Assembly: GCF_003259615.1 (NCBI RefSeq)
Contig: NZ_QLLR01000008.1
Span: 1-64,000 of the forward strand
From: Pedobacter cryoconitis
GTDB taxonomy: Bacteria > Bacteroidota > Bacteroidia > Sphingobacteriales > Sphingobacteriaceae
Length of the DNA stretch: 64,000 nt
Reading direction: 5' to 3'
The notes beneath the pieces were generated by a model. It did not search any database. It had not been told where the DNA came from and worked only from the letters and a program-made list of their open reading frames with translations. Each line of letters opens with the position of its first letter. The stretch's first letter is position 1. Below, one piece after another: positions 9,275 through 61,248 of this stretch. The translations under genes were made by a program, and so were the position numbers.

Positions 9275-9279
9275 CTAAA

Positions 9280-58463: not shown

Positions 58464-58742
58464 ATGAGTATCAAAGAGTTATTATTGAATGGAACGAGCT
58501 TTTTATTGCTAATGAAAGAGTATGCCATCGACATCGCCGATATTAAAATAAAGGACGAAGAGGTGATTGCTGTACAGTTTTTGCAACACCCCGAAGTTTC
58601 TAAAGAGAGCATTTGTATCGAAGGCAGAAATAAAGATGGAATAATAAATTTTTTTGGTACCCTTCATTATAATCTTCTGAGTAAACTTGCTGTATTTGAA
58701 ATGCAGGGATTTGAGCGGACTGCTTTGCAGGAACTGACTTAG
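58464..58742 (+). CDS. Small hypothetical protein
   Basis: 92 residues, MSIKELLLNGTSFLLLMKEY..., soluble, alpha/beta by composition, ending ALQELT. It overlaps the 3' end of the convergent YihY gene by 4 bp. No family recognised. The coding frame is supported by length, an ATG with upstream A-rich sequence, and absence of a competing frame. Confidence 0.55.
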   Translation: MSIKELLLNGTSFLLLMKEYAIDIADIKIKDEEVIAVQFLQHPEVSKESICIEGRNKDGIINFFGTLHYNLLSKLAVFEMQGFERTALQELT

Positions 58743-59659
58743 GATGGCTTTAAAACCTCTTTTATTTCATAATTAAATGCTCCTTTAATGGGGCGTATAG
58801 GGGTTTCTTTGGCATCACTCAGCACTTTCACAAAACAAGCTCCGAAATAGAATATAAAAGAAGAATAGAATACGAAAAGCATAATCAGCACAATGGAACC
58901 GGATGCACCATAAATATTACCTATGTTACTCATTGGTAGTGCAATACGTAGAATGTATTTCCCAAGTGTGAATAGAATGCCGGTCAGAATTCCCCCTCTG
59001 ATCGAAGATTTCCACGTGGGCCTACCACTAGTCAGAAAACGGAATAAAACACTGAACCAGGTCGTTACAATGGCAATAAATAATAACTGATTTAAAATCA
59101 GGAGAAATACTCTTCCCAAGGTAGGAGAGGCTGTAGTGATATAAACACCAATAAAAGCCTGGACACTGTCTGTAAGCAGGCCTATAGAGAATAATAAACC
59201 TGCCAGCAGGATAATAACCATTGACCTTGCCCTGATTTTGAGTTTAAACAAAAAGCTCGTATGATCTTTCATCCCGATAGACCAGATCTGATCCATGGAG
59301 TTTTTGATGACTGCGAAAAGGGTAGTTGCTACAAAAAGGAAGAAAACAAAACTCAGCAGCGTAGCATACCATTTATGGTCCATTCCCCTGATGTTCCTTA
59401 AGGTTTGCCTGATTTGCTGGGTACTGCTGTCATCCAGTATTGTTCCAAGCCGTTCAAAAATCCGGTTGACCATAGTCTTACGGTCAATAAAAAAACCAAA
59501 TAGTCTGATCAGGATCAATAAAATGGGAGGTAAAGCGAAATTGGCGAAAAAGGCAGTTGCGCCGGCCAGCCTTAGCGGGTCATTCTTTTGAAAAAGTTTA
59601 AATGCTTTCCGGAAATGCACTGTAAAAATATGAATTCTCTGGATAGTAATATTAAACAT
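58739..59659 (-). CDS. YihY/BrkB-family inner membrane protein
   Basis: 306 residues with six hydrophobic segments. LRLAGATAFFANFALPPILL near the N-terminus and IYGASGSIVLIMLFVFYSSFIFYFGACFV before the C-terminus are typical of the YihY/virulence factor BrkB family, whose function is uncertain (once annotated as RNase BN). Monocistronic; its upstream region is the structured gene-free stretch. Confidence 0.93.
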   Translation of the reverse strand: MFNITIQRIHIFTVHFRKAFKLFQKNDPLRLAGATAFFANFALPPILLILIRLFGFFIDRKTMVNRIFERLGTILDDSSTQQIRQTLRNIRGMDHKWYATLLSFVFFLFVATTLFAVIKNSMDQIWSIGMKDHTSFLFKLKIRARSMVIILLAGLLFSIGLLTDSVQAFIGVYITTASPTLGRVFLLILNQLLFIAIVTTWFSVLFRFLTSGRPTWKSSIRGGILTGILFTLGKYILRIALPMSNIGNIYGASGSIVLIMLFVFYSSFIFYFGACFVKVLSDAKETPIRPIKGAFNYEIKEVLKPS

Positions 59660-59798
59660 GCCTCTCTTGTTGCCGGTGAAGCCCGAAAGTACTTAAATTT
59701 TCCGAATGGAAGGGTAGAAAAAAACAACTTTACCAGGGAAATCCCGCGGGAGACCTAAAAGGCCATCCCACGAGTTATACCTGGTTTTTGTAAACAAT

Positions 59799-59838
59799 TT
59801 AGCTAAACACACCACATAATTAACTAAACAACACACCA
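59799..59838. repeat. Imperfect direct repeat pair
   Basis: TTAGCTAAACACACCA (59799-59814) recurs as TTAACTAAACAACACACCA (59820-59838), 21 bp apart, i.e. on the same face of the helix. Confidence 0.55.
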
Positions 59839-60003
59839 TATAGCGGTAAGACCATACAGGTAATAAGCTTACAGGTTATACATAACCCGATAAAGCTCAA
59901 TAAGTTTGAAAATTAAACCGGTAAATTTAATTACGGCTTAAAGTATTAATTGATTAAACGTACAAAACAGAGAATACCCCTATGTGTACGTCCAATCTTT
60001 TAT

Positions 60004-60079
60004 AAAAAAACAAGTGTTAGTTACCTGGCTTAACGTTCGCTACCCCCTCAGACAGCGTAACGCGGCCAATTAATAACAC
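60004..60079 (-). terminator. Long composite stem-loop with T-tract, downstream of hpd
   Basis: On the minus strand: outer 6-bp GTGTTA/TAACAC plus TTA/TAA, then TGGC/GCCA, then an 8-bp CGTTCGCT/AGCG-T-AACG stem with a 12-nt loop, followed by TTGTTTTTTT. It begins 42 bp after the hpd stop codon. It fits an intrinsic terminator, though large and interrupted, or the 3' end of a small RNA. Confidence 0.5.
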
Positions 60080-60120
60080 CTGCTTTTTATACTATTTTGA
60101 AGGTTAAACCTTCCGGGAAA

Positions 60121-61248
60121 TTAAAGATTACCTCTTAATTCCTGCTCACGTTCTAAAGATTCAAACAAAGCTTTAAAGTTTCCCGCACCAAAGGATTGGG
60201 CACCTTTTCTCTGGATAATTTCGAAGAACAACGTCGGACGATCCTGCACTGGTTTAGTGAAAATCTGCAGTAAATAACCTTCTTCATCATGGTCAACTAA
60301 AATTCCCAGTTCCTGTAAAGGCGCAATATCCTCGTCGATTTTTCCTACACGTTCCAGTAAAGTATCATAATAAGCTTTTGGGGGAGGACTCAAAAACTCT
60401 ACTCCACGTGCCTTCATCTCTCTTACAGTCTGAATAACATCATGTGTAGCTACTGCAATATGCTGTACGCCTTCCCCATTGTAAAACTCCAGGTACTCTT
60501 CAATTTGCGATTTCTTTTTACCTTCGGCAGGCTCATTGATCGGAAATTTCACATATCCATTTTTGTTGCTCATCACCTTACTCATTAAAGCAGAGTATTC
60601 CGTGTTGATTTGTTTATCATCAAATGAAAGGATGTTTCTGAAGCCCATGACATCTTCATACCACTTCACAGCTTCGTTCATTCTGTTCCAGCCTACATTT
60701 CCAACACAGTGGTCAATATATAAAAGGCCAGTGCTTCCTGGTTGATAACCGCCTTCTACAGCAACATAACCAGGCATAAATGAACCTTTATAGTTTTTGC
60801 GTTCTACAAACAAGTGGACAGTTTCACCATAAGTATAAATACCTGCGGTACGAACTTCACCAAACTCATCTGTTAAAGTTTGAGGCTCCTGGTAAGAAAC
60901 AGCGCCGCGTTTAATGGTTTCCTCATACGATTTGTAAGCGTCATCAACCCATAATGCAAGGATTTTTACCCCATCACCGTGTGTTTTAATATGTTCTGCA
61001 ATTACGCCTTCAGAGCCCATTGGTGTAGTCAGTACCAATCTTATTTTTCCTTGTTGTAATACATAGGAAGCTCTGTCTCTCAGGCCGGTTTCCGGGCCTG
61101 CATATGCCACAGTTTCGAACCCAAAGGCTGTTTTATAAAAGTGTGCAGATTGTTTTGCATTACCTACATATAGCTCTAAATGGTCTGTACCATTAAGTGG
61201 CAGGAAATCACGCACTTCTGTGTCTTTTTCTACAACTAGTGTTTGCAT
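60121..61248 (-). CDS. hpd: 4-hydroxyphenylpyruvate dioxygenase
   Basis: 375 residues. Fe(II) enzyme that makes homogentisate in tyrosine catabolism. The three metal ligands are in the expected places: His in YIDHCVGNV, His in GVQHIAVATHDV and Glu in LFFEIIQRKG near the C-terminus. GTDHLELYVGNAKQSAHFY begins the N-terminal VOC half. It lies 58 bp after hmgA on the same strand, so both are one operon. Confidence 0.97.
   Translation of the reverse strand: MQTLVVEKDTEVRDFLPLNGTDHLELYVGNAKQSAHFYKTAFGFETVAYAGPETGLRDRASYVLQQGKIRLVLTTPMGSEGVIAEHIKTHGDGVKILALWVDDAYKSYEETIKRGAVSYQEPQTLTDEFGEVRTAGIYTYGETVHLFVERKNYKGSFMPGYVAVEGGYQPGSTGLLYIDHCVGNVGWNRMNEAVKWYEDVMGFRNILSFDDKQINTEYSALMSKVMSNKNGYVKFPINEPAEGKKKSQIEEYLEFYNGEGVQHIAVATHDVIQTVREMKARGVEFLSPPPKAYYDTLLERVGKIDEDIAPLQELGILVDHDEEGYLLQIFTKPVQDRPTLFFEIIQRKGAQSFGAGNFKALFESLEREQELRGNL

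Follow-up and report, generated by a model that had tools for sequence, protein, structure and literature searches.

The gene-free stretch between hpd and a YihY/BrkB gene of Pedobacter cryoconitis is composite, consisting of a hairpin of a dispersed family (hairpin A) and an adjoining single-copy probable small RNA gene (Table 1). With moderate confidence, we read it as two minus-strand RNA features: the hpd terminator, a member of the hairpin A family, and an ECF-dependent small RNA that would pair through hairpin D. As judged from its sequence, the second feature is most likely an ECF-sigma-dependent small RNA that acts by base pairing like the sigma-E small RNAs. The window, i.e., the whole stretch of DNA that was analysed, comprises 64,000 nucleotides (contig NZ_QLLR01000008.1).

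The gene-free block and its conservation

The gap between hpd and the YihY/BrkB gene was 461 nt long (59660–60120) and contained no credible gene, in agreement with the earlier note, which had described a gene-free stretch of ~460 bp with at least three inverted-repeat structures. The structure was borne out as well. At least four hairpins (A, C, D, and B) recurred in relatives, and the minus strand of the whole block folded at −151.8 kcal/mol vs. −110.0 kcal/mol in shuffled sequences (z −6.4). The two minus-strand TTGTTTTTTT tracts were spaced by 286 nt. An Rfam search and a covariation analysis in Pedobacter relatives had been proposed as checks. The block gave no Rfam match at the gathering score, and sub-threshold matches were at chance level. 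The earlier note could not match it to tmRNA, RNase P, SRP RNA, or a riboswitch, and the block indeed represents none of these known RNAs. The stems were kept in relatives with compensatory changes. Elsewhere in the window, a 5S rRNA gene was located at positions 1734–1845 (Rfam RF00001).

Table 1. Features of the hpd–YihY/BrkB region, in window coordinates.
Feature	Position	Strand	Description	Basis
hpd	60121–61248	minus		
Hairpin A	60007–60086	minus	terminator-like, 35 nt past the hpd stop codon, dispersed-family member	full-length covariance model match; fold z −5.8 vs. shuffles
Apex of hairpin A	60041–60054	minus	TGTCTGAGGGGGTA, invariant in the 8 hpd-linked copies	alignment
TTGTTTTTTT tract at foot of hairpin A	60004–60013	minus	likely hpd termination site	sequence
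ECF-sigma-like promoter	59956–59982	minus	TAGGGGTATT-N12-CGTTT	motif recurrence in 8 genomes
Predicted small RNA	59718–59950	minus	~230 nt; 5′ end predicted from the −10 box, 3′ end from the T-tract	promoter motif, conserved hairpins, no conserved frame
Hairpin C	59836–59860	minus	short stem, sequence varies by species, pairing mostly kept	4 of 9 pairs changed on both sides
Hairpin D	59797–59829	minus	TTTAGTTAATTATGTGGTGTGTTTAGCTAA; loop UUAUGUGGUGUG is the likely pairing region	30 nt identical in 8 of 8 genomes
Hairpin B	59732–59785	minus	CCAGG-closed irregular stem with wobble and compensatory changes	fold z −4.9 vs. shuffles; alignment
TTGTTTTTTT tract	59718–59727	minus	likely 3′ end of the small RNA	sequence
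−7 box of the YihY promoter	59684–59691	minus	TACTTTCG, housekeeping-type TAnnTTTG	present in block-bearing and block-less relatives
YihY/BrkB gene	58739–59659	minus		

The locus in which yihY lies next to hpd was compared across 30 Pedobacter genomes. The block (300–507 nt) was present in eight of them, all related and belonging to the P. cryoconitis group, including P. cryoconitis S3M1, M2T3, and strain PAMC26386. Since these eight genomes form one clade, the independent support that they provide is limited. The block was absent from the remaining 22 genomes, in which the gap measured 43–218 nt; those block-less gaps that were inspected contained hardly more than a plain terminator, in addition to the −7 box of yihY. 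Only 11% of the fourfold sites in hpd and yihY were invariant over the eight block-bearing genomes, so the stretches of the block that did not vary among them (30 nt in hairpin D and 14 nt at the apex of hairpin A) are evidently under strong constraint. G-U pairs outnumbered A-C mismatches both in hairpin A (44 vs. 4) and in hairpins C, D, and B (69 vs. 1), which indicates that minus-strand RNA is what folds; the latter ratio is not expected from a DNA structure.

Hairpin A and its dispersed family

Hairpin A would terminate the hpd mRNA; its stem is flanked by an A-tract and a T-tract, and it is one of a lineage-specific family of such hairpins. The stems of hairpin A swap sequence among the eight genomes, with compensatory change at 14 of 33 pairs; 93.8% of the cells were paired, compared with 80.5% after shuffling and no more than 48% in slid controls. 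Compensatory cells numbered 40 vs. 14.4, exceeding both the shuffles and the slid controls. A covariance model of hairpin A retrieved full-length copies at other loci. In the refined alignment of 44 copies, compensatory change was found at 25 of 33 pairs (277 cells vs. 88 in shuffles), although this alignment was fitted to the covariance model and is biased towards it. The refined model detected copies in 33 of 400 genomes of the family, every carrier being a Pedobacter of one lineage. Laxer filters gave 17 copies in the genome of the window, 25 in G023, and 28 in G126, the weakest matches being less certain. The hairpin family had no match in Rfam.

According to automatic gene calls, a same-strand gene preceded 81 of 100 distinct copies in the fetched loci, and the copies lay at a median of 27 nt past the stop codon. 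At least five T in eight nucleotides were present at the 3′ foot of 99 of these 100 copies, and the 5′ foot was A-rich in 97. The family thus has the stem, the T-tract, and the position just past a gene by which intrinsic terminators are recognized. The gaps bearing copies were 43 convergent, 35 codirectional, and 2 divergent, compared to 1, 20, and 14, respectively, for other gaps in the same loci (automatic gene calls). In the succession of A-tract, stem, and T-tract, in the enrichment at convergent gaps, and in the rarity at divergent ones, the family resembles bidirectional intrinsic terminators; it differs from plain terminators by a common inner module, fixed internal loops, and conserved sequence. 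The first impression of a strict sense orientation was abandoned, about one in five copies being reversed by the automatic gene calls. Some antisense copies were located upstream of a gene and close to its start, the gene concerned being shared by two species in each case; these genes, named by eye, were nuoA-like (L192, L193) and feoA-like (L097, L185). Since these copies sit at the same place in different species, copies are inherited vertically. Facing pairs of copies, ~125–1370 nt apart, were also observed, some of them between convergent genes (L186, L198, L199, L201, L207, L208, L213, L214).

Short dispersed intergenic hairpins, located mostly at gene 3′ ends and numerous in each genome, are also characteristic of REP elements with RAYT (Y1) transposases. 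However, a search with the Y1_Tnp profile (PF01797) gave no match in any of the 33 family-carrying genomes, although 82 of the 144 genomes of the genus had matches, and the outer arms of the hairpins, unlike those of REP elements, differ at each locus. Mobilisation by RAYT is therefore unsupported, and a RAYT-driven REP element was rejected; the absence of PF01797 follows lineage lines, so that the 33 carriers are not 33 independent observations. Within Pedobacter, Y1/RAYT transposases are frequent in one part of the genus, and none occurs in the 33 carriers. A single weak PF01797 match was found in G006, in which hairpin copies were detected by searches other than the one that gave the 33 carriers. 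The scattered copies and the outer arms differing by locus also argue against attC sites of integrons, which form tandem arrays with an integrase and have conserved outer R boxes, as far as sequence can tell.

Promoter motif and predicted small RNA

The earlier note read the block as two terminators around a possible small RNA, which is largely right: a region of ~230 nt on the minus strand looks like a small RNA. The block does not form one unit, however, the hairpin on the hpd side being a member of a different repeat family with copies at numerous loci. The region beyond hairpin A is single-copy and kept in the eight related genomes with the hairpins in the order C, D, B. It combines conserved RNA structure with a lack of coding potential, as small RNAs do. 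It would also have its own promoter, as stand-alone small RNA genes have: in seven of the eight genomes, it was preceded by the ECF-like motif TAGGGGTATT-N12/13-CGTYT or close variants, i.e., TAGGGG or a close variant downstream of hairpin A, followed after 15–16 nt by CGTYT. The exception, G024, lacks the motif yet keeps hairpins, so the motif must be dispensable or replaced there.

This exception and the co-occurrence of hairpin A with hairpins C, D, and B in the same eight genomes would also fit a long hpd 3′ UTR, in which the whole block forms one read-through mRNA end that has no promoter of its own and either stabilises hpd mRNA or yields a processed 3′-UTR small RNA. We consider such an arrangement unlikely, as the promoter motif is present in seven of the eight genomes and recurs before other genes, and hairpin A resembles a strong terminator whose family occurs without hairpin D everywhere else.

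The exact pattern TAGGGGTATT-N11–14-CGTYT had 26 matches in the eight genomes vs. none for its reversal. Among 25 motif sites examined, one was inside a long gene, three overlapped a sigma gene at its end, immediately ahead of fecR, and one overlapped a short opposite-strand frame; the rest were located before genes, often orthologous ones. Apart from the coding match, only two spacings occurred (match length 26 or 27). The motif preceded an inward rectifier K+ channel gene by ~180 nt in six genomes (L080, L225, L226, L234, L239, L240) and a beta-lactamase-fold gene by 47 nt in four. The ~180 nt before the channel gene leave room for another leader or short gene. Among the downstream genes, Pfam recognized an inward rectifier K+ channel, a beta-lactamase fold, a FecR protein, and a carboxypeptidase-regulatory domain like those carried by TonB-type receptors. 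The promoter motif is thus common to the probable small RNA and, largely, to genes of surface and membrane proteins. A broader pattern, GGGGTA-N15–18-CGTYTTA, gave coding matches only and was no better than the control; only the exact motif was therefore used.

As to the T-tract that the earlier note placed after each stem, both minus-strand TTGTTTTTTT tracts are present; the one after hairpin B, found in G000 and near relatives, does not directly adjoin the stem in G000. The T-run of hairpin B was missing or far off in G023, G006, and G091, the tract itself not being kept in G023. Together with the lack of the motif in G024, the loss of this tract in G023 weighs most against the small RNA reading. 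In G024, hairpins A, C, and D were kept, and hairpin B was replaced by a simple hairpin. Because the T-run is inconsistent across genomes, hairpin B is regarded more as a structured domain than as a terminator common to all of them. In several genomes, hairpin B is nevertheless followed by a T-tract, and the motif lies on the yihY strand ~300–360 nt upstream of this gene; both would suit a cis leader of yihY, with an ECF promoter, a long structured leader, and an attenuator at hairpin B. A leader had also been offered in the earlier note. We regard it as quite unlikely, because yihY has its own conserved −7 box, TACTTTCG, after the block and in block-less relatives as well, and in most genomes yihY has no block at all.

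In hairpins C, D, and B, 5 pairs showed compensatory change vs. 1.5, again more than in the shuffles and the slid controls. A search allowing up to three mismatches found hairpin D at this locus only, in 8 of 144 genus genomes. Since hairpin D hardly varies, its stem is untouched by the covariation test and could instead be a DNA-binding site. An operator made of TTTAG-TAA repeats 21 bp apart, a two-turn spacing, would account for the invariance of both stem arms. It is very unlikely, given that the changes in the neighbouring hairpins C and B are RNA-like and strand-specific and that hairpin D occurs at a single locus. Less probable still is a short membrane peptide (MVCCLVNYVVCLAKLF...) encoded across hairpin D in a frame that is open there in all eight genomes and for ~60 codons in G000: third codon positions show the same invariance as first and second ones, the frame is cut short or shifted in G019, G006, and G091, the start codon is missing in G019 and G024, and peptide coding was rejected, as no reading frame across the small RNA region was kept over the eight genomes.

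Returning to the small RNA, the sequences show its structure, conservation, and strand as well as the promoter motif and the recurrence of this motif; from these we infer the steps from motif to transcription, the sigma factor identity, the pairing mechanism, and the targets as follows. An ECF-type sigma factor would start the ~230-nt RNA at ~59950, with its end near 59718. The RNA would be made on release of the sigma factor; an envelope signal is the probable trigger, given that the remaining motif-bearing genes are largely membrane or surface genes. It would fold into hairpins C, D, and B and pair with target mRNAs via the invariant region of hairpin D.

A scan for targets near start codons gave nothing significant and was no better than with shuffled loops. 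The best candidate was an MraZ-like gene (identified by eye; window position 9279, plus strand), the leader of which contains ACACTACATAA, a near-complement of the loop of hairpin D. As a base-pairing target it was rejected, its value being −14.5 kcal/mol vs. a mean of −14.6 kcal/mol for shuffled loops, and it is kept as a lead. The mraZ gene heads the cell-division cluster. The loop motif TCTGAGGGGGTA alone was uninformative, its matches beyond the clade being mostly within long open frames.

Relation to known RNAs and significance

Sigma-E-dependent small RNAs of enterobacteria (RybB, MicA, MicL) are stand-alone intergenic RNAs with an ECF-type promoter, the motif of which is shared with envelope-protein genes. 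The predicted RNA would resemble them in all these respects; it is longer (~230 nt), and the likeness implies no sequence relation. In a member of the Bacteroidetes, Flavobacterium psychrophilum, ECF promoters typically have a CGT −10 box, and one of them precedes the putative small RNA Rfp11 (PMC9723704). The likeness to the Rfp11/SM6 promoters, a CGT-box ECF promoter before a putative regulatory RNA, is one of description, and the SM6 regulon, unlike the genes found here, includes type IX secretion genes (PMC9723704). A structured RNA motif from Pedobacter (PMC2864571), Pedo-repair (RF01715), has been submitted to Rfam; it comes from the same genus, but neither the block nor the hairpin family matched it. 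Neither the hairpin family nor the small RNA was described in the open-access texts searched, and neither matches Rfam.

More speculatively, the family may be a 3′-end code, in which the conserved inner module is read by a common RNA-binding protein and tags dozens of mRNAs within a single Pedobacter lineage, having spread without RAYT. The neighbouring RNA would then be an ECF-dependent regulator, a kind of RNA of which hardly any examples are known from the phylum; we give this idea as a whole little weight. The hairpin family is a repeat that expands at the ends of genes, and the genomes concerned yielded no RAYT; how it spreads and whether the cells use it are the questions that follow. 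Few Bacteroidetes small RNAs have a known regulator, and the compact promoter motif with its recurring gene set points to a testable ECF regulon in Pedobacter that may include an RNA.
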